Assembly (NCBI RefSeq): GCF_036429475.1
Contig: NZ_CP144125.1
Location: forward strand, 1,984,001-2,048,000
Length of the DNA: 64,000 nucleotides
Direction: 5' to 3'
Source of the DNA: Halalkalicoccus sp. CGA53
GTDB taxonomy: Archaea > Halobacteriota > Halobacteria > Halobacteriales > Halalkalicoccaceae
Shown here: piece after piece, positions 9,372-56,393 of the stretch
Layout of the letters: each line of letters begins with the position of its first letter
Numbering within the stretch: the stretch's first letter is position 1
The notes under the pieces: model-generated
Told to the model about the DNA's origin: nothing
The model's database searches: none
Seen by the model: only the letters and a program-made list of their open reading frames with translations
Translations under genes and position numbers: made by a program

Positions 9372-9716
9372 CTAGATGCCGGGGACGCCGAACGCGCCCA
9401 CACTGATGTTGAGCACCGTCGCGAGCGCGAAGACGATCACGAGCGCCGAGAGCCACGCGACGAAGCCGATGATCACGGAGTCGACCCAGCCGCCGGGGTA
9501 GCGCCAGTTGATCACGGCGATCCAGACGACGAGCGCGATGACGGGTCCGAGCAGGGGAATCCACGCCGTGACCGCCCACGCGATCGCCCCGATCAGCGCC
9601 GTGATCACCGCGTGGCTGTAATCCTCCACGTCGGCGATCACCCGGGCGCTGAGGTAGATCGCGAGACCTCCGACGAGCAACGCTACGACGAACGCGAGTA
9701 CCGATCCAACTACCAT
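9372..9716 (-). CDS. Four-helix hypothetical membrane protein
   Basis: A 114-residue protein made almost entirely of four hydrophobic helices (about residues 3-25, 37-53, 57-70 and 83-105) with few charged residues and no catalytic motif. It has a Gly/Pro turn (RYPGGWVDS) before the last helix. I do not recognise a named family. It ends 1 nt from the flavoprotein stop, convergent, so it is a separate transcript. Confidence 0.7.
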   Translation of the reverse strand: MVVGSVLAFVVALLVGGLAIYLSARVIADVEDYSHAVITALIGAIAWAVTAWIPLLGPVIALVVWIAVINWRYPGGWVDSVIIGFVAWLSALVIVFALATVLNISVGAFGVPGI

Positions 9717-9852
9717 ACCTCGATTTCGAGGCGCCGACGGTTATACACACGCCCGTCGCACGCAACGTCCGTCGTTCTCCGGAATCGACAGCTCCGATGC
9801 GCCGTAACGTGTCTTGCGAACGGTTATGCATCCGGGGGGAGAACGGCGCTCG

Positions 9853-10155
9853 ATGGGAGTCGAACGGGGGGAAACACGCGGCTCGACCGGTCGCTGGACG
9901 ACCACGATCGACCGCGCCGTCACACCCGACGACGACTGCACCGAGATCGCGGGACTGCTCCAGGAGCGGCGAGACCACGACCGGGAGACGAGGTCCGTCC
10001 GTCGAGCGATCCCGTGGGCTGCGCTCGCGCTCGTCGTCGCCGTTCCGCTGCTGCTCTACTCGGAACTCCTGACCCCGACGGGAAGCCGGAACTTCTTCGG
10101 GATGGCGATCGGCGCGGCGCTGATGGCCGTCGGCTGGTGGAGCTACGCCCGCTAG
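9853..10155 (+). CDS. Small two-helix hypothetical membrane protein
   Basis: A 100-residue protein with a polar N-terminal half containing charged heptad-like residues (IAGLLQERRDHDRETRS) and two helices at about residues 53-71 and 79-97. An in-frame ATG at 9826 would add 9 residues, but ggttatgca there sits about 27 nt upstream of 9853 like a TATA box, so I choose the later start. No family recognised. Its TAG stop shares ctag with the stop of the convergent nuclease-like gene. Confidence 0.65.
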   Translation: MGVERGETRGSTGRWTTTIDRAVTPDDDCTEIAGLLQERRDHDRETRSVRRAIPWAALALVVAVPLLLYSELLTPTGSRNFFGMAIGAALMAVGWWSYAR

Positions 10156-10733
10156 AGCGAACCGTCCTCTTTCTTGAACGAGCGCCAGAGCCGGCCGTTG
10201 ATCGCCCTGAGCTGCTCGCCGACCGCCTCCGAACTCCGCCGTCTGGGTGCGGGGCTCTCGAACTGCGTGACCGAGTTCGCGTCGAGCGAGAGCCGCTTCA
10301 TTCGGACCGCGGGTTCGGAGTCGCCGATCCGCCAGATCTCGAGCTGGACGAGGACGAACTCGATCGCGTCGGTGTTCGCGTCGAGCCACGCGAGCGCGTC
10401 CAGTTCGCGCTCGGAGAAAGAGGGTGCGATCCAGACGATCACCGAGGCACCGATCTCGGCCGCACCCGCGAGCGTCGCGAGCACGTCCAGGTCCTCGGTG
10501 ATACAGTCCTCGATCACGACCTGCTCGCCCGTGTTCACGCCGCGAGCGTGGACGTCGATCCCGTACGGGCCGACGCCGTCGGCTTCGATCACCTCGAGTT
10601 CGCGGTCGAGTAGCTCCTCGAGGTCCGACCGGCGGTCGTCGTAGATCTCGCCGACGAGCCAGGTGGTAAAGCCCTCCTCGTGGTCGTTCCAGTACGCGGA
10701 TACCTTCTCCGCCTGTAGTTCCCCGAAGCCCAT
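10152..10733 (-). CDS. DUF4268-like protein with PD-(D/E)XK-type nuclease fold
   Basis: A 193-residue cytoplasmic protein resembling DUF4268-type proteins. The core YGIDVHARG, then VVIEDCIT, then VIVWIAPSF, then LEIWRIGDSEP matches the order of the restriction-endonuclease-like fold in that family as I remember it (D-Xn-E-X-Q). Here the Asp and Glu are kept (about residues 58 and 74), but the position usually held by Gln/Lys reads Cys, so activity may be lost or altered. No methylase or restriction partner is adjacent. The N-terminus begins MGFGELQAEKVSAYW, with a clear gap upstream. Function is inferred from fold similarity only. Confidence 0.6.
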   Translation of the reverse strand: MGFGELQAEKVSAYWNDHEEGFTTWLVGEIYDDRRSDLEELLDRELEVIEADGVGPYGIDVHARGVNTGEQVVIEDCITEDLDVLATLAGAAEIGASVIVWIAPSFSERELDALAWLDANTDAIEFVLVQLEIWRIGDSEPAVRMKRLSLDANSVTQFESPAPRRRSSEAVGEQLRAINGRLWRSFKKEDGSL

Positions 10734-10852
10734 ACCCCCTCCGGGTCACCCCGGCTAATAACTCCCCGGACGTCCCGTTTTTTCGACGTGTTGAACCGTG
10801 ATAGAACTCGGATCGTCGGAGTTAAGAGCGAGAGTCCCAAACCCGGTACCGA

Positions 10853-10927
10853 GGGCGCTTAGCTCAGTCTGGACAGAGTGCTTGGCTTCGGACCAAGTTG
10901 CCGCGGGTTCAAATCCTGCAGCGCCCA
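10853..10927 (+). tRNA. tRNA-Arg (anticodon TCG)
   Basis: A full cloverleaf in 75 nt: acceptor GGGCGCT pairs with AGCGCCC; D-arm around GCTC...GAGT; anticodon stem CTTGG/CCAAG enclosing loop CTTCGGA with anticodon TCG; and T-arm with GGTTCAAAT. The discriminator is A and CCA is not encoded. No intron. It marks the left end of an AT-richer accessory stretch, a common situation for integrated DNA, but I found no second copy of its 3' end by eye. Confidence 0.95.
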
Positions 10928-11250
10928 TCATTCTTCGTGTCGGTTCGGATTCCACAGACGGCGTCCAGTCGTATTTAAACGACGGGGGGTTCGCGCGAGT
11001 GATTCCAACATGAATCATCTCGGGGGTCGCCGCCGCCACGCGGTTCACATGATACCAATCGCCGCTCTAGCGGAGATCGTTGATACGGATCGTCGGCTCA
11101 AACGGAGAACCACAATCAGTTGAGTGACCAGCTCTATAGCCAGTTCTCGATTCGGTGATCTGCGAGCAAAACCGCAAGAGAGCGCTCCATCAACAATGTG
11201 CTACAGAAGAGCGTGCGCACTAATTCAGCACCGAAGCCGTGGTAGCAACG
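10928..11250. other. Gap downstream of tRNA-Arg, possible 37-codon ORF
   Basis: No recognisable gene. A TATA-like tatttaaa at 10971-10978 precedes an ATG at 11010 that opens a 37-codon basic ORF ending at 11123. I cannot tell whether it is translated. The remainder has no clear repeats or homology that I can see. Confidence 0.4.
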
Positions 11251-11763
11251 CTACCTACAGACGTACTGGATCTCGTACGTTAGGTTTGGACCTTCTTGGA
11301 GCACGGTACCGGTCCCAGTGACGTCAACGGTGTTCGCTGCCTGGTTTATTACCCGAACCGATGCCTCGGTAATGGGAAAGCCAGGCTCAGGTACATGTCC
11401 ACGGCCTGAGACGGCCAGGGTGAGCGTTCCCTCGCCACAGTCACCTACCCGACCGGTGAACGTCATCGTGCCGTCGAAGACGACGCGACCGCTCTTGTGC
11501 ACCATTCCACTGGTATCCTGCACGAAGGTGCCTTCTAGGGTTCCGGTAGCTGTTCCTGTAAGAATGCGATCCTCGAAGCTGTTGCCGCCCACTTCACGGA
11601 TCGGAGTTACCTCTAAGCCCGTTATCGAGCCTTCCCCGGATCCTTGAACTGGCGGTCCCGGATTGTTCCCGTTCGCAGCGACTGCCGTGGGCGTACTCAG
11701 GATAGCTGCTGCGCCGCCCGCACGAAGTACTGCCCGTCGAGTTATTTCGGTCACGTTTACCAC
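11251..11763 (-). CDS. Secreted hypothetical protein with Tat-like signal
   Basis: A 170-residue protein with a Tat-like leader (TRRAVLRAGGAAAILS) and an AVAANG-like cleavage region near residue 30. The mature part is rich in Gly, Thr and Val with alternating hydrophobics (GTATGTLEGTFVQD, GRVVFDGTMTFTGRVG), which suggests an all-beta barrel of the kind seen in allene-oxide-cyclase-like or DUF3224-like proteins; that fold guess is inference. Two cysteines (VGDCGEG and the C-terminal YVCR) could pair. The start is GTG at 11763, with another in-frame GTG at 11754. It lies alone in the accessory stretch with wide gaps on both sides. Confidence 0.6.
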   Translation of the reverse strand: MVNVTEITRRAVLRAGGAAAILSTPTAVAANGNNPGPPVQGSGEGSITGLEVTPIREVGGNSFEDRILTGTATGTLEGTFVQDTSGMVHKSGRVVFDGTMTFTGRVGDCGEGTLTLAVSGRGHVPEPGFPITEASVRVINQAANTVDVTGTGTVLQEGPNLTYEIQYVCR

Positions 11764-12288
11764 CCCGTCCTCCCCGAAGAGGACTAAACCCGTAACAATG
11801 TTAATTGACTTATAGATTTTCTACGGCTGTCAAGTACATCGTAATTTCCCTTCGAAGAGGATTCGCTTCGGTCTCGTCCGTTCAGTCCAGAGAACGGAGA
11901 TGCGGATAGAGGCTATCGAGTCCGAACGGTGTACGTCGGACACCCCAAGCTGTTTCGGACTCGAGGAAGCACGGGGTTGGACCACCACAGATCTGGTGAC
12001 ACCCCACCGCCCGAAAACGTAACGTCCGCGTCGGTGCTCTCCGACGCTCTGTGAATCGACACAATCGATTATCTGATGTGTTGTGACCCATCGGGACGAC
12101 CGATTTCTCGTATCAAGGTGTGCACCACTGTCAGTGACTGCAGGAGTGTCAATCAGTGACTATATGATCAATTCACGCATTGTGTCTTGGTACCACTCAC
12201 CACTAACGGTGAAAGCAAACCTAGCTCCGTACGATACGGAACTGAAAGTGGAAGAAGCCGCTTTTACAGGCGTGGTGAGGGGATTACC
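11764..12288. other. Gene-free gap upstream of subtilase
   Basis: I see no gene in these 525 bases, which are AT-richer than the flanking core genome. The right end holds a TATA-like cttttaca at 12261-12268, about 25 nt upstream of the subtilase ATG, fitting a leaderless promoter. Confidence 0.5.
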
Positions 12289-13842
12289 ATGCCAAGGAAT
12301 TACGTAAGTAATGTAAGACGACGTGACATACTCAGAGCCTCAGCGGGAGGAATCCTCGCTGGTACGACGGGGGTGTCGGCGGTGTTCGGAGGAATCGTCG
12401 CTGCAACCGGTGGGGAACAGCGCTATATCGTAGCAGCGAATCGAAATGCTCGAAATCGGATCGGGAACGCGGGGTTCGACGTCACCCGAGCGCTCGCCGA
12501 CGAAACGGTGTTGATCGTGGTCGGACCAGAAGACGAGCAGGAAACCCTCGAAGCCATCAACGGCGTTCAGGACGTCACGCTGGACTTTAAGATAGAGCTT
12601 CAAGACACCGTCAACAGCGGTATCGAACACGACTTTGAATCGGTTGCGAGCGGTGATGAGGGCGGGGAACCACCGACGTTGTGGGACTTCCAGTGGGAGA
12701 AGCCACAGATAGGCGTCCCGGAGGCCCACGATATCGCGACGGGTGCAGGGACGAAAATCGCGATCATCGACACCGGGATTCAACCCGGACATCCCGATCT
12801 CGGGAATCTCAACGAAGACGAGAGTGTCGCGTTCATCGAAGGGGAGCGAATCGATGCAGGAGAGCCAGTCGACGTGTTCTTTAGCCACGGAACGATGGTG
12901 GCCGGAATCGCTGCTGCGCAAGGAAATGGGATACTCGGTACCGCCCCGGACGCGGAACTGGTGTCGATTCGCGTGTTTACGCCAGCAGGTACCACCACAT
13001 TTGTCGACATCCTGCTCGCAACGGAGTATGCTGCTGCAATCGGTGCCGACGTCGCGAACCTGAGCCTCGGAACGGTACCGTTACCGCCCCAGGTGAATGC
13101 AGGCGGTATCAGGGCGGCCGACGAGCGTGTCGCCAATCACGCCGTCAGGGACGGCACCGTCGTCGTGTACGCCGCGGGGAACTCCGCAACGAACTTGCAG
13201 CAGGGTGGGCAGGTAGTGTTCGGTGCCAGCATGGCCGGTACGGTTGCAGCGAGTGCGACGGGAGCAGACGAGCTACTGACGTTCTATTCGAATTACGGGA
13301 CGAATGTGATCGACGTCGCCGCACCCGGTGGTGGGATGGCAGATCCAGTCGAGAGTTACTGTGGGTACGCTGAATACATCGCTCAGTTCGAGCCGGTCGA
13401 TCCAGACTTCCCGGACGGCCCGTTCGCGGAGTTCATCGACCCGGAAGATCGGGAATTTCCGGGATCAGGGGTAGATACTGAAGTGTGCTTCGCGTTTCCC
13501 GACGAAGTGTTTCCGGTCCCGGTAGTCAACGAGAATTTCATCGCGGAGTGTTTCCCGTGTACGACCGGTGAATACCCGTTCCCGCTCAACGGAATTATTT
13601 CGACGATGTACATTCCGGAGTTGGATCTACACACGTATGAGTGGCAGGGTGGGACGTCTTTCGCGGCGCCGCACGTCGCAGGAGTCGTCGCCCTCGTCCG
13701 GGAACTCGAACCGGACATGAACGCACGGCGAGTCGTGAATGCGATCAAGCAGGGCGCCGAGGGAGCTACTGGCCGGAGCGATCCCGAACTCGGCGCCGGT
13801 CGAATTAATGCGCTGAATACCCTCATCCGCGTCGACGGGTAA
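12289..13842 (+). CDS. Exported subtilisin-like serine protease (S8 family)
   Basis: A 517-residue extracellular protease related to halolysins. A Tat motif (VRRRDILRASAGG) leads a hydrophobic signal; residues 45-105 resemble an inhibitor I9-type propeptide. The catalytic triad is complete: Asp161 (IAIIDTG), His200 (SHGTMVAG) and Ser457 (GGTSFAAPHVAG), with oxyanion Asn298 (AAGNSA). Between residues about 350 and 440 is an acidic, aromatic insertion with Cys358, Cys400, Cys421 and Cys424 that I do not recognise from standard halolysins; disulfides are possible. No C-terminal extension follows the catalytic core. The ATG at 12289 fits the Tat signal and the TATA box 25 nt upstream. Confidence 0.93.
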   Translation: MPRNYVSNVRRRDILRASAGGILAGTTGVSAVFGGIVAATGGEQRYIVAANRNARNRIGNAGFDVTRALADETVLIVVGPEDEQETLEAINGVQDVTLDFKIELQDTVNSGIEHDFESVASGDEGGEPPTLWDFQWEKPQIGVPEAHDIATGAGTKIAIIDTGIQPGHPDLGNLNEDESVAFIEGERIDAGEPVDVFFSHGTMVAGIAAAQGNGILGTAPDAELVSIRVFTPAGTTTFVDILLATEYAAAIGADVANLSLGTVPLPPQVNAGGIRAADERVANHAVRDGTVVVYAAGNSATNLQQGGQVVFGASMAGTVAASATGADELLTFYSNYGTNVIDVAAPGGGMADPVESYCGYAEYIAQFEPVDPDFPDGPFAEFIDPEDREFPGSGVDTEVCFAFPDEVFPVPVVNENFIAECFPCTTGEYPFPLNGIISTMYIPELDLHTYEWQGGTSFAAPHVAGVVALVRELEPDMNARRVVNAIKQGAEGATGRSDPELGAGRINALNTLIRVDG

Positions 13843-47349: not shown

Positions 47350-48018
47350 ATGCACGTCGTCGTCAACGCCGCGACGAGCGCCGACGGGAAGCTCTCGACG
47401 GGCGAGCGCCGCCAGGTTCGGATCAGCGGCCCCGAGGATTTCGCCCGCGTCGAGAGGCTCCGCGCCGAGAGCGACGCCGTGATGGTCGGCGTCGGCACCG
47501 TCCTCGCGGACGACCCACGCCTCGGCCTCGACGAACCGAAACTGAGAGCGGAACGCGAGTCCCGCGGCGATCCCCCCGAGCCGGCCAGAGTCGTCGCCGA
47601 CTCCCGCGCACGAATCCCAGCCGACGCGAGAATTCTGGACGGGAGTGCGACGACCTACCTCCTGGTGAGCGAGGGCGCTCCGGAGGAACGCCTCGCCGAA
47701 CTCGATAGAGAGACAGTTCGGATCGTCCGCGCAGGAGGGGAACGTGTCGATCTTCGAGCCGCCCTCGCGGCGCTCGAAGCGGACGGCGTTCGGCGGGTGA
47801 TGGTCGAAGGCGGCGGCGAACTACTCTTCTCGCTCTTTTCCGAGGACCTCGTCGACGAGCTCTCGCTCTACCTCGGCTCGCTCGTCATCGGCGGGCGCGA
47901 CGCGCCGACGCTCGCCGACGGCGAGGGATTTCTCGATGAAGCCGAGTTCCCGGATCTCGCGCTCCGCGAGGTCTCCCGGGTCGACGACGGCGTGTTGCTC
48001 CGCTACGACGTCGAGTAG
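47350..48018 (+). CDS. arfC: 2,5-diamino-6-ribosylamino-pyrimidinone 5'-phosphate reductase
   Basis: A 222-residue RibD-C-type reductase for riboflavin (and archaeal deazaflavin) precursors. Family marks are VVVNAATSADGKLST at the start, SDAVMVGVGTVLADDP in the NADPH region, and VMVEGGGELLFSLF near residue 155, all in normal order. Archaea use the reductase alone, without the deaminase domain, which fits. It is divergent from the RPA operon with 83 nt between ATGs. The ATG at 47350 is the only sensible start. Confidence 0.92.
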   Translation: MHVVVNAATSADGKLSTGERRQVRISGPEDFARVERLRAESDAVMVGVGTVLADDPRLGLDEPKLRAERESRGDPPEPARVVADSRARIPADARILDGSATTYLLVSEGAPEERLAELDRETVRIVRAGGERVDLRAALAALEADGVRRVMVEGGGELLFSLFSEDLVDELSLYLGSLVIGGRDAPTLADGEGFLDEAEFPDLALREVSRVDDGVLLRYDVE

Positions 48019-52485: not shown

Positions 52486-53295
52486 TTACATCCGGGCCTG
52501 GCCGGGTTCGATGTTGTCGACGGTGAGTGCGACGTCGAACGCGGGATCGTCGGCCACGTAGCCGATCGCCCACGCCGAGTAGACGGTTCCAGCCTCCAGC
52601 TCCACGGGCACGCCGAGCACCGCATCGTCGCGGTCGCCCGCCGCGTAGATGCAGAGGCGGTACTCGCCCTCGGGGACGTCGACGTAGCCGCCCTCGCCGA
52701 ACGGTACGTCCTCGAACAGTGCGTCACCGGTCGCGGCGACCGTGATGTCGACGTTCGGGGCGTCCGGCGACGCGTGGAACGCGCGGACGCGCGCTTCGCC
52801 CTCGGCGGGGTCGGAGTTGTCGTCCTCGAGGACGACGACCTCGAACTCCTGGTTCTCGCCCTCGAGTTCGCCGATCGCCGCGATGGTGAACTCGCCCTCG
52901 GGCACGTCGACCTCCTCGTCGAACACCGACGTCTCGGGGTCGCCCGTCGCGGTCACCTCGATCTGGTAGCTGTCGGCCGGGAGCTCGAGGTAGCCGGTGA
53001 CCTGCCCGAACGGCAGGCCCTCGATCACGAGGTCGCCGTCGACGTAGACGTCGACGTCCGGTGCGTCCGGCGAGAGGTGCGCGACGCTCACCAGCGCGTC
53101 GCCGCCCTCGTCGGCCCCGTCGTCCTCCATATCCTCCTCTTCCTCGTCGTCCATCTCCTCTTCTTCTTCCTCCTCCATCTCCTCGTCGTCATCGTCGTGG
53201 CTGTCCGCGGCCGCGTAGCCGCCCGCGAGTCCGACCACCGCGACGCCGCTGCCGATCTGTACGAATCGCCGTCTGGATAGGATGCCTTGCATCAT
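52486..53295 (-). CDS. Exported DUF4397 protein with acidic linker
   Basis: A 269-residue protein. A Tat motif (LSRRRFVQIGSG) precedes the signal, then an extremely acidic Asp/Glu/Met linker (about residues 38-65), then two DUF4397 beta-domains with repeated VSVAHLSPDAPDVDVYVDG and VRAFHASPDAPNVDITV. The family is a surface or secreted beta-sandwich of unknown role. The start could be 53295 or 53292 (adjacent ATGs). Convergent with the MscS gene after 6 nt. Confidence 0.88.
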   Translation of the reverse strand: MMQGILSRRRFVQIGSGVAVVGLAGGYAAADSHDDDDEEMEEEEEEEMDDEEEEDMEDDGADEGGDALVSVAHLSPDAPDVDVYVDGDLVIEGLPFGQVTGYLELPADSYQIEVTATGDPETSVFDEEVDVPEGEFTIAAIGELEGENQEFEVVVLEDDNSDPAEGEARVRAFHASPDAPNVDITVAATGDALFEDVPFGEGGYVDVPEGEYRLCIYAAGDRDDAVLGVPVELEAGTVYSAWAIGYVADDPAFDVALTVDNIEPGQARM

Positions 53296-53358
53296 GAGTA
53301 TGTGCAACCTATAGTTGGTTCGACACGGTAGTGAACGCTGTACCCGACTAGTAGGGTA

Positions 53359-55011
53359 TCAGCGATCGAGGAACTCGGAGACGAGCTTTCGTTCGGCCGC
53401 GCGGAGGTGCTGGTGGAACGTGGACCGGCCGATCCCCATCGACGCCGCGATGTCGTCGCCGGAGGTGGTCCTGTTCGCGTCGTAGTAGCCGCTCAGGAAC
53501 GCCCGCTGGAGCGCCATCAGCTGTCTGTCGGTCAGCCGCTCCTCGAGCGTGTCCCGGTGTTCCTCCCTGGTCCGTGGCGGACGCTCGCGCTCGTGGTAGG
53601 CGACGAGATCGGCCCGATCGTAGGCGCCGGTGAGCCACGCGGCGATCGATCGGGGCGATCCCGGCACCGTCTCGACGGTGATGGTGGCCTCGCCCCCCGC
53701 GATCTCGATCGAGAGCGTCCGCGCACCCCGGTCGGCGAGCGCCTCGACGATCGAGGGCGAGGCGACGCGGAACTCGACGAGGCTCGTCTCGTCCTGCTCG
53801 GTCTGGAGCGTCGCCTCCAGGTCGTCCCTGTCGCGGGCGAAGGCAAGCACGCGCTCTGGGGGGATCCCCTCGACGGTGAAAAAGAGCGACTGCGTGCCGT
53901 CGGTTCCGGGCACCGAACCCTCGTACTGGAGACGACAGTCCGCTTCGGTCGAGAGCGCGACGAAGGGGAGCGCGTCGTCGGCCAGCACGAACTCGAGTTC
54001 GATCACGTTGTCGGCGGCGAGCACGCGGGCGTTCGCGGCCGCACTGAGCGTACCCGCGAGCGCACGCCCGATCGATTCGACGATCACCGCCTCCCGGTCG
54101 TCGAACGTCCCCTCCTCGTCGTCGTAGAGGACGAGGACGCCGTGTTCGAGGTCGGCGTGGACGAGCGGGACGACCGCGAGCGAGGAGAACGATCCGTCGG
54201 GTGCCGAGAACTCCGGATCTGCCCGTTCGAGGAACAGCCGTTCGCCGTCCGTGAGCGCGCGAGCGACCGGGTGATCGGGGTCGTCGACCCCGTCCGGTTT
54301 CTCCGATCCGGACCACGCCCGGGGATCGATCGCCCCGGTCCGCGCGTCCCGCTCGCCGATCCAGGCGGTCGCGTACGCGTCCGAGGCGGTGAGTCGTTCG
54401 CAGACGGCGCGCTCGACGTCCTCGCGTTCGGTCGCCCGGACGAGTATCCCCGTCACGTCGCCGAGGAGCCCACTGACACGGTCGAGCAGGTACGAGAGCG
54501 CCTCGCGCTCGCGAGAGACCTCCTCGACCCGGCGCTCGACCTCGGCCTCGGCCTCCTTCCGGGCGGTGACGTCGCTCTGGAAGCCGACGAAGTGGGTCAG
54601 TTCGTCCTCCCCGTCGAACAGCGGTGCGATCTCGACCCGGTTCCAGAACGGCTCGCCCCCCTTTCGGTAGTTGCGGAGTTCGACCGTGACCCCGTGGCCC
54701 GCCGCGATGGCCTCGCGCATCGCTCTGACCTTCCCGGGGTCGCTCTCCTCGCCCTGAAGGAACCGGCAGTTCGTCCCGAGCACCTCCTCTCTGGGGTAGC
54801 CAGTGATCCGCTCGAAGGCGTCGTTGACGTAGACAAGCGGGTTGTCCGGCTCGCGCGCGTCGGCGATCGTGACGCCGACCGGCGCGCGCTCGACCGCCCG
54901 CTCGACGACCGACGGGGAGTCCGTCGCGGAATCGATAATCGTCTCGACGTCGATCGACCCCTCCGCGAGTCGGTCGACGACCGACTCCGCGTCGGACTCC
55001 CCCTCACTCAT
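53359..55011 (-). CDS. Bat-type regulator with LOV sensor, GAF and HTH_10
   Basis: A 550-residue regulator like bacterioopsin activator Bat. Residues 40-150 are a LOV-type PAS domain: GTNCRFLQG with Cys82 where the flavin adduct forms, conserved Asn113 and Asn124 (LRNYRKGG, PFWNRVEI) and Gln145 (FVGFQSD). Next come a GAF-like region (about 185-335), the BAT output domain (about 340-485) and HTH_10 (about 495-548, LTDRQLMALQRAFLSGYYDANR). LOV architecture predicts FMN binding and blue-light response. No rhodopsin gene is in the window. Confidence 0.92.
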   Translation of the reverse strand: MSEGESDAESVVDRLAEGSIDVETIIDSATDSPSVVERAVERAPVGVTIADAREPDNPLVYVNDAFERITGYPREEVLGTNCRFLQGEESDPGKVRAMREAIAAGHGVTVELRNYRKGGEPFWNRVEIAPLFDGEDELTHFVGFQSDVTARKEAEAEVERRVEEVSREREALSYLLDRVSGLLGDVTGILVRATEREDVERAVCERLTASDAYATAWIGERDARTGAIDPRAWSGSEKPDGVDDPDHPVARALTDGERLFLERADPEFSAPDGSFSSLAVVPLVHADLEHGVLVLYDDEEGTFDDREAVIVESIGRALAGTLSAAANARVLAADNVIELEFVLADDALPFVALSTEADCRLQYEGSVPGTDGTQSLFFTVEGIPPERVLAFARDRDDLEATLQTEQDETSLVEFRVASPSIVEALADRGARTLSIEIAGGEATITVETVPGSPRSIAAWLTGAYDRADLVAYHERERPPRTREEHRDTLEERLTDRQLMALQRAFLSGYYDANRTTSGDDIAASMGIGRSTFHQHLRAAERKLVSEFLDR

Positions 55012-55079: not shown

Positions 55080-56393
55080 TCAGTCGTCGGACTCCGCCAG
55101 CGCGGGCTCCGGGCTCTCGCCGACCGCGCGGTCGAGGTCGTCGAGGTACTCGTCGGCGTCGATCGCCGCCTTACAGCCCATCCCGCCCGCCGTGATCGCC
55201 TGCTGGTAGTGGAAGTCGACGACGTCGCCCGCGGCGAATATCCCCTCGACGTCGGTCCTCGTCTGGCCGCCGCCGGTGCCGTCGCGGGCTTTAATATACC
55301 CTTCAGAATCCATCTCGACGCCGGTGCCCTCCAGGAAGTCGGTGTTCGGCGTGTGGCCGATCGCGACGAAGAAGGCCGCGACGTCGAGGTCGAACTCCTC
55401 GGTCGCCGGATCGTCGGGCTTCGCCGTCGGGTGGCCGTCCGGGTGGCGGACGAGACTCACCGACTCGACGCCGGCCTCGGGCGAGCCGTGGATCTCCGTC
55501 ACCTCGCTGTTCAGGACGAGTTCGATCTCGCCGGCCTCGACCTTCTCCTCGATGCGGTCGACCCAGTAGCCCTCCGCGCGGAACTCCTCCCTGCGGTGGA
55601 CGAGGTAGACCTTCTCCGCGAACTTCGTGAGGAAGCTCGCCTCCTCGCAGGCGGCGTCGCCCCCGCCGACGACCACCATCTCCTCGTCCCGGAAGAAGGC
55701 CCCGTCACAGGTCGCACAGGTCGAGACGCCGTAGCCCATCAGCTCGTCCTCGCCCGGCACGCCCAGCGTGCGGGCGCTCGCCCCGCTCGCGACGACGAGC
55801 GCGTCGGTCGTGTAGATCGTCCCGTCGCGCAACTCGACGCGGAACGGCCGCGAGGAGGCGTCGACGTTCTCGATCACGCCGTGTTCCACCTCGGCCCCGA
55901 AGCGTTTCGCCTGTCGCTTCATCCGGTCGATCAACTCGGGTCCGCTGATCCCCTCCGGGAAGCCCGGGTAGTTCGCCACGTCGGTGGTGAGGGTGAGCTG
56001 GCCGCCGGGCTCGCCGCCCTCGATCACGAGCGGGTCGTTGTTCGCTCTTCCTGCATAAATCGCGGCGGTGAGCCCCGAGATACCGCTTCCCGCGACGATC
56101 ATCCGTCGGTGCTCGCCACCGCCGCTCTCGATCCCGAGGAGGGCGTCCAGTTCGCCCGACTCGTCGAGTTCGGCGAGTTCGTCGTAGCCGCCGATCAGCT
56201 CGTCGTCGACGAAGATCTCGGGGACAGTCTTCCTGCCGTCGGCGCGCTCGGCCATCGCCTCCTTCGCCTCCTCGTCGCCCGTCACGTCGAGGAGCTCGTA
56301 CTCGACGCCCTTCGCGTCGAGCAGCTCTTTCGCACGCTCGCAGTACGGACACTCATCGGCGGTGTAGACCTCGACGTGTGGCGTCTCGCTCAT
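55080..56393 (-). CDS. Glutaredoxin-thioredoxin reductase fusion
   Basis: A 437-residue disulfide enzyme. Residues 1-85 are a glutaredoxin with CPYC (Cys15, Cys18) and the cis-Pro TVPEIFVDD; about residues 97-420 are a thioredoxin reductase with FAD motif GSGISGLTAAIY, the redox pair CATC (Cys226, Cys229) and NADPH motif GGGDAACEEA. A single start at 56393 and one unbroken frame cover both. The reductase could reduce its own glutaredoxin directly. Acceptor partners are unknown. Confidence 0.9.
   Translation of the reverse strand: MSETPHVEVYTADECPYCERAKELLDAKGVEYELLDVTGDEEAKEAMAERADGRKTVPEIFVDDELIGGYDELAELDESGELDALLGIESGGGEHRRMIVAGSGISGLTAAIYAGRANNDPLVIEGGEPGGQLTLTTDVANYPGFPEGISGPELIDRMKRQAKRFGAEVEHGVIENVDASSRPFRVELRDGTIYTTDALVVASGASARTLGVPGEDELMGYGVSTCATCDGAFFRDEEMVVVGGGDAACEEASFLTKFAEKVYLVHRREEFRAEGYWVDRIEEKVEAGEIELVLNSEVTEIHGSPEAGVESVSLVRHPDGHPTAKPDDPATEEFDLDVAAFFVAIGHTPNTDFLEGTGVEMDSEGYIKARDGTGGGQTRTDVEGIFAAGDVVDFHYQQAITAGGMGCKAAIDADEYLDDLDRAVGESPEPALAESDD

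Follow-up and report, generated by a model that had tools for sequence, protein, structure and literature searches.

Archaeal LOV proteins have been surveyed before, and in the part of that survey drawn on here 167 of them were counted, 30% of the halobacterial ones having a fused HTH, in one arrangement Bat-like; none of the archaeal LOV-HTH proteins had been investigated and no targets were named there (Losi et al. 2014, PMC4844311). The regulator described here, LOV-Bat, shares with these proteins the reactive-Cys LOV domain, the GAF domain, the C-terminal HTH and the haloarchaeal origin, and its class is thus already known, Bat-like LOV-HTH proteins of Halobacteria having been reported in 2014 (PMC4844311). 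According to the portions of the respective papers used here, Bat of Halobacterium salinarum, the bop activator, lacks the LOV Cys (PMC4844311) and binds upstream activator sequences (UAS) of several genes, among them bat, brp and crtB1 (PMC1885257); such sites are located 5' of bop and also close to brp and crtB1 (PMC1447603). The PAS-GAF-HTH architecture is common to both regulators, as a bop-UAS-like DNA element may be, but the H. salinarum protein is without the Cys and serves bop, brp and crtB1, whereas LOV-Bat has the Cys and its candidate site precedes a DUF4397 gene. BAT-LOV* of Halorubrum hochstenium, as described in the sections consulted, likewise belongs to the Bat family and has a LOV-like flavin domain, but carries Pro in place of the Cys and an extra receiver domain (Yee et al. 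2015, PMC4682037). A haloarchaeal LOV domain with the Cys, ALovD-1 from Lake Diamante, does photocycle, and has in common with LOV-Bat the FWN followed by R that is reported for group A; it comes from a histidine kinase and was studied as an isolated domain, whereas the LOV domain described here is part of a Bat regulator (Valle et al. 2025, PMC12202551, in the part drawn on). EL222 of Erythrobacter litoralis is comparable in principle, as a LOV domain controls the HTH of the same chain (PMC4844311, in part).

The window, the 64,000-nucleotide stretch of the Halalkalicoccus sp. CGA53 genome analysed here, contains the following regulator features:

53359..55011, minus strand: LOV-Bat, a one-component regulator of 550 aa with the order LOV-GAF-BAT-HTH_10 (Pfam, translation and family homologues)
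54532..54906, minus strand: LOV (PAS) domain, residues 36-160, with the Cys82 codon at 54766-54768 and with N114, N124 and Q145 (Pfam, PDB matches and model)
53380..53535, minus strand: HTH_10 DNA-binding domain, residues 493-544, with the conserved RSTFHQHLRAAERKL (Pfam and alignments)

The reading frame is open from its ATG startcodon, and the Pfam matches to PAS_9 (46-150), GAF_2 (194-319), BAT (334-486) and HTH_10 (493-544) are all above the cut-off, giving the sensor domain, GAF, BAT (PF15915) and HTH_10 (PF04967) that define a Bat/HTH_10 regulator. The PAS fold has the GXNCRFLQ motif, the two flavin-binding Asn and the signalling Gln of LOV photoreceptors, and the first-pass annotation had claimed this full set, C82, N114, N124 and Q145 being found in the translation exactly where it placed them. 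A PDB sequence search matched 156 solved sequences, and among the 60 of these that were listed many are named as blue-light receptors, phototropins or constructs thereof and others just as 'sensory box' or 'histidine kinase'; the top two matches (1.7e-36 and 1.9e-36) have entry titles that identify them as LOV structures. A model computed from ten family sequences reaches pLDDT 75-93 in most of LOV, GAF and BAT and is mostly below 50 in the HTH, and its LOV part superposes on 9vf7_A, a LOV structure, with 1.4 A over 137 columns (TM by target 0.92). Homologues with 51-83% identity are present in all nine other genomes of the family, and the adduct Cys is found in 10/10 family genomes (own included) and in 52/54 rows of a larger tree, the rows of which were gathered by likeness to LOV-Bat (L095, and L193, which is on the same contig as L081, were left out). 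From sequence and model LOV-Bat is thus probably a blue-light sensor with a predicted flavin adduct at Cys82, and both back the earlier description, in which a LOV-type Bat away from any rhodopsin locus was predicted to form an adduct.

The presence of C82 rules out a Cys-less BAT-LOV* identity. EL222 is a short LOV-HTH protein in which a single LOV is joined to a LuxR-type HTH, without GAF or BAT, and an EL222-type identity was ruled out by the finding of GAF, BAT and HTH_10. Phage records gave only partial matches to LOV-Bat, covering at most 21% of the protein in five records. In the neighbourhood of the gene, 68 bp upstream and on the same strand, lies a glutaredoxin-thioredoxin reductase fusion (55080-56393, minus strand), an arrangement confined to the window genus among the loci examined. 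The own genome has 33 BAT-domain matches, 32 of them above the cut-off, and a second intact LOV-Bat with the sequence GRNCRFLQG in an open frame of 706 residues (L007, G000:C2:981276-984731).

The 3' end of the LOV-Bat gene is followed by a short spacer and the next gene, for which we list:

53342..53357, no strand assigned: proposed LOV-Bat operator, a bop-UAS-like palindrome reading ACCCTACTAGTCGGGT on the minus strand (comparison)
53330..53336, minus strand: GTTCACT, a block of weak conservation on the downstream side of the palindrome (spacer alignment)
52486..53295, minus strand: proposed target, a DUF4397 protein with a Tat-type SRRRF signal, an acidic linker and two DUF4397 stretches (Pfam and by eye)

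The 16-bp palindrome ACCNNACTAGTNNGGT starts one base past the LOV-Bat stop codon and 46 nt before the DUF4397 ATG, which was set at 53293-53295 by comparison with L062 (in the 90-nt upstream count the window spacing was entered as 49 nt, from the second ATG). Exact copies occur once per genome in 9/10 family genomes, three of these only 61-71% complete, and always directly after LOV-Bat, where a first-order model built from the window expects 0.09 per genome; CTAG is rare in the window (32 vs 213 expected by base composition). In a spacer alignment of nine loci (window, L062, L063, L051-L055 and L057, with the L063 contig stopping right after the DUF4397 startcodon) 14/16 columns are invariant in the palindrome vs 14/77 elsewhere, and the GTTCACT block is possibly, with low confidence, a core-promoter element. 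In the tenth family genome (G007) a single deletion removed the HTH of the regulator, the palindrome and DUF4397, while one clear and two weak DUF4397 homologues are retained elsewhere. A reversed control pattern gave one exact match in the own genome and none in the other nine family genomes, and at up to one mismatch the own genome has four other palindrome sites and four control sites in total; as the control equals the sites, these own-genome counts say little by themselves, and it is position and conservation that carry the case. The conservation, position, co-loss and spacing of the palindrome all emerge from comparison of sequences, which supports 53342-53357 as a candidate LOV-Bat operator. 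The bop UAS is said, in work of Baliga and DasSarma from 1999, to be ACCcnactagTTnG at -52 to -39, from which the palindrome presumably differs at one capital position; the element, found upstream of DUF4397 and of the rhodopsins of relatives, is a putative match to the published UAS.

The DUF4397 gene adjoins LOV-Bat in 8/10 family genomes, the remaining two being G009, where the contig ends just past the DUF4397 startcodon, and G007, where the gene was lost; the 90 nt upstream of DUF4397 contain the exact palindrome in 8/8 cases. The Tat-type SRRRF signal was called by eye and export is thus predicted. A function could not be taken from structure, as the model is poor (mean pLDDT 57) and the best Foldseek matches are extracellular domains of PepT1/PepT2, and the sequence search found no solved relative of the protein; the model is rich in strands and may comprise two beta-sandwich domains. 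We conclude from these comparisons that the principal target of LOV-Bat is probably the DUF4397 protein, with predicted export and putative binding of the regulator at its promoter. The first-pass annotation had left the regulon as unknown, and this is no longer wholly so, since the conserved bop-UAS-like palindrome singles out the neighbouring DUF4397 gene as one proposed target.

We expanded the search to LOV-Bat relatives, taking the best 80 of 299 loci, of which 34 (L062-L095) were studied as LOV-Bat loci and 45 (L097-L141) served as unsorted controls, mostly matching over the LOV part only, with L096 used for neighbours only (L062 and L063 are on the same contigs as L058 and L059). The 33 other loci (32 LOV-Bat loci and the remnant L142, 520 kb) contain 7 exact sites, 17 at up to one and 30 at up to two mismatches, compared with 0, 0 and 8 in the 45 control loci (648 kb). 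The site counts are not independent, as a large share of the loci compared come from close kin. For LOV-Bat-linked rhodopsins, the 90 nt upstream contain a site in 13/26 at up to one, 18/26 at up to two and 23/26 at up to three mismatches, and 22 of the 23 sites end 36-43 nt before the start, the other one being at 59 by start choice; the three linked rhodopsins without a site within 90 nt at up to three mismatches are L075, L077 and L090. At up to two mismatches, control promoters of 90 nt had no sites (crtY 0/22, brp 0/20, arfC 0/7, TrxR 0/3), with a single brp site at up to three. In the same 90-nt test crtB had a site in 1/10; the palindrome on the crtB side is located at or after the LOV-Bat stop and at irregular distances of about 74 to 360 nt before crtB, with up to one mismatch in L067, L073, L081 (same contig as L193), L095, L189, L191 and L192, and with two in L190 and L199.

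Across 116 genomes of the order the exact palindrome was found in 16 genomes at 18 places, against six exact sites in six genomes for the reversed control. Ten of the 18 lie no more than 100 nt from where a homologue of LOV-Bat (P0001) has its 3' end; six of these ten come from the window family, and for the one in G116 the homologue aligns only past most of the LOV part. Another is the promoter of the G035 rhodopsin, and the remaining seven comprise one before a rhodopsin in trans, one before a peroxiredoxin-like ORF and five without explanation. In L207 (G055:C25:182775) about 42 nt separate the palindrome from a downstream rhodopsin gene of which the 5' part reads in another frame, and in L208 (G116:C1:970743) an ORF judged by eye to be peroxiredoxin-like has an exact palindrome 36 nt upstream. 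In L195 (G116) the palindrome is 39 bases past a Bat stop and before a gene of the methyl-accepting chemotaxis type, and that Bat aligns with the window protein only from the end of the LOV region onward. Exact palindromes lacking a neighbouring P0001 homologue were found at G048:C1:455687, G086:C2:1217561 and G013:C2:102910, with no clear target, and twice in G114, with no clear target at the one on C7.

Searches with Bac_rhodopsin and with the rhodopsin of a congener gave no match in the own genome, which comprises 4.04 Mb in two contigs, and its sole Brp match is about 1.7 Mb away, in line with the earlier remark that bop and brp are absent from the window; LOV-Bat is accordingly not a bacterio-opsin activator in the strict sense of rhodopsin linkage or action in its own genome. 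Family searches found rhodopsin in 2/10 family genomes, both congeners, in which it adjoins a different LOV-Bat that is about 40% identical to that of the window and also has the Cys; in L060, where the contig is long enough, crtY and brp come after rhodopsin and LOV-Bat. The own genome retains a remnant of such a locus (L142, G000:C2:3714000-3733900, about 9500-12700), where crtY and brp are open and conserved and rhodopsin is missing: compared to L060, about 3.9 kb is gone (rhodopsin and the LOV Cys part of Bat) and another 0.5 kb is missing within Bat, which is truncated to part of PAS and HTH_10, while the crtY-side palindrome is retained. The Bats of rhodopsin loci (L060 10538-12190, L066-L094) have the LOV Cys in all but L090 (Pro), in a set gathered by likeness to a Cys-bearing protein and not by the Cys motif; the comparison left out L001, L002 and L005 (other Bat paralogues), L095 (shifted frame), and L064 and L065 (same contigs as L053 and L057). 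Since many relatives with the same Cys are at rhodopsin loci, the LOV Cys is not special to Bats away from rhodopsin.

In the tree used for target labels (54 rows; as for the Cys count, with L195, which has no LOV, also left out and L007 added) the DUF4397-linked rows and G007 form one clade (bootstrap 100, SH-aLRT 99). The three target labels need 3 changes vs a shuffled mean of 15.5, with 0/200 shuffles as low, although near-copies cluster the labels. Rhodopsin-linked rows (26 of 43 labelled, counting the weak matches L075 and L077) are scattered across the tree, which suggests rhodopsin as the older partner, and the window lineage was probably rewired from rhodopsin to DUF4397, a direction that we infer because several deep branches are below 60% bootstrap. 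Many rows share the HTH text R(S/A)T(F/Y)HQHLRAA. The STFHEHLR rows (L069, L088, L197, L198, L200 and L202) have no site at up to one mismatch, an element with two mismatches lying 21 bases ahead of the stop in three of the six, and 17/40 other loci outside the window family are likewise without a site in the stretch scanned; the HTH text was given little weight as a predictor of the site, as the STFHEHLR rows are one clade and many STFHQHLR rows also lack it.

Other explanations were weighed against this reading. LOV-Bat could sense redox state or oxygen, with flavin reduction or the cysteines of GAF and BAT signalling and the light chemistry incidental: the Cys-less Halorubrum BAT-LOV* binds flavin and changes shape upon chemical reduction (Yee et al. 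2015, PMC4682037, in the part drawn on), H. salinarum Bat acts, in the source material used, at low oxygen and light, all ten family sequences have both C204 and C359, which makes redox sensing possible, and the glutaredoxin-thioredoxin reductase gene is adjacent. We nevertheless regard this as improbable, as the retention of the adduct Cys in the family and the larger tree is what selection for a photocycle would give, and a Cys-bearing archaeal LOV domain does photocycle (Valle et al. 2025, PMC12202551, in part). The position of the palindrome one base past a stop codon and its near self-complementarity would also suit a terminator or processing hairpin of LOV-Bat, or the operator of another regulator, the LOV-Bat regulon then being unrelated. 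Against this, the palindrome in L057, where the spacer is longer, keeps a constant distance to the DUF4397 start and not to the LOV-Bat stop; in L072, L087, L093 and L196 it is found ahead of rhodopsin, some 1.7-2.8 kb away from the stop codon of LOV-Bat; in G055 it stands before a rhodopsin in a 5 kb stretch that gave no LOV-Bat match; the spacing of 36-43 nt holds for nearly all rhodopsin starts having a site; and a scan with a bacterial-type consensus, which says little for an archaeon, found no terminator-like site. This makes such a role very unlikely.

It is doubtful, though less so, that LOV-Bat serves several targets, namely DUF4397 together with crtY-brp of the decayed rhodopsin locus via TCCTGACTAGTTCGGT and weak sites elsewhere. 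The 1-mismatch site TCCTGACTAGTTCGGT is indeed retained upstream of crtY in the own genome, where the local LOV-Bat is truncated, but that truncated Bat keeps an HTH_10 match above the cut-off and might itself use the crtY site, and the other 1-mismatch sites are at background. Two neighbours were set aside. A reductase that we take to be arfC-like and of the riboflavin pathway is at 47350-48018 (plus strand) in the window, 5.3 kb off on the other side and strand, and a riboflavin link is not needed; similar reductases (L051-L053 and L055-L057) are encoded on the strand of LOV-Bat in 6/7 genomes of the sister genus, starting 2.5-3.2 kb ahead of its stop codon. The thioredoxin reductase-glutaredoxin gene was rejected as a target, having no palindrome in its 90 nt and being a neighbour in the window genus only, among the loci examined.

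We therefore favour, with fair confidence, LOV-Bat as a blue-light one-component regulator that would act via the palindrome on DUF4397, and that was probably rewired from rhodopsin. Blue light absorbed by the LOV flavin would lead to a thioadduct with Cys82, as the sequence suggests, and the signal would pass via a coiled linker, GAF and BAT to HTH_10, which, probably as a dimer, may bind the palindrome after its own stop codon and so control the adjacent gene for the Tat-exported two-domain DUF4397 protein, most likely by activation given the UAS-like position of the palindrome. In many relatives the same type of regulator and site may operate at the rhodopsin promoter, and in some probably at phytoene synthase. 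More tentatively, and somewhat short of evenly balanced because the crtB spacing is irregular, LOV-Bat and the palindrome may form a portable haloarchaeal blue-light switch, coupled variously to rhodopsin, phytoene synthase and DUF4397, and here kept after the loss of rhodopsin with nearly a single target.

Among the papers covered by the literature search we found none that names a gene under the control of an archaeal LOV transcription factor. With a single regulator, a 16-bp site and one neighbouring gene, the present case offers a candidate light-controlled target that is directly testable. As many rhodopsin-locus Bats have an intact LOV Cys, unlike H. salinarum Bat, blue light itself may switch on rhodopsin in those relatives, and LOV-Bat with its site, if working, would be a natural blue-light expression tool for high-salt archaea.
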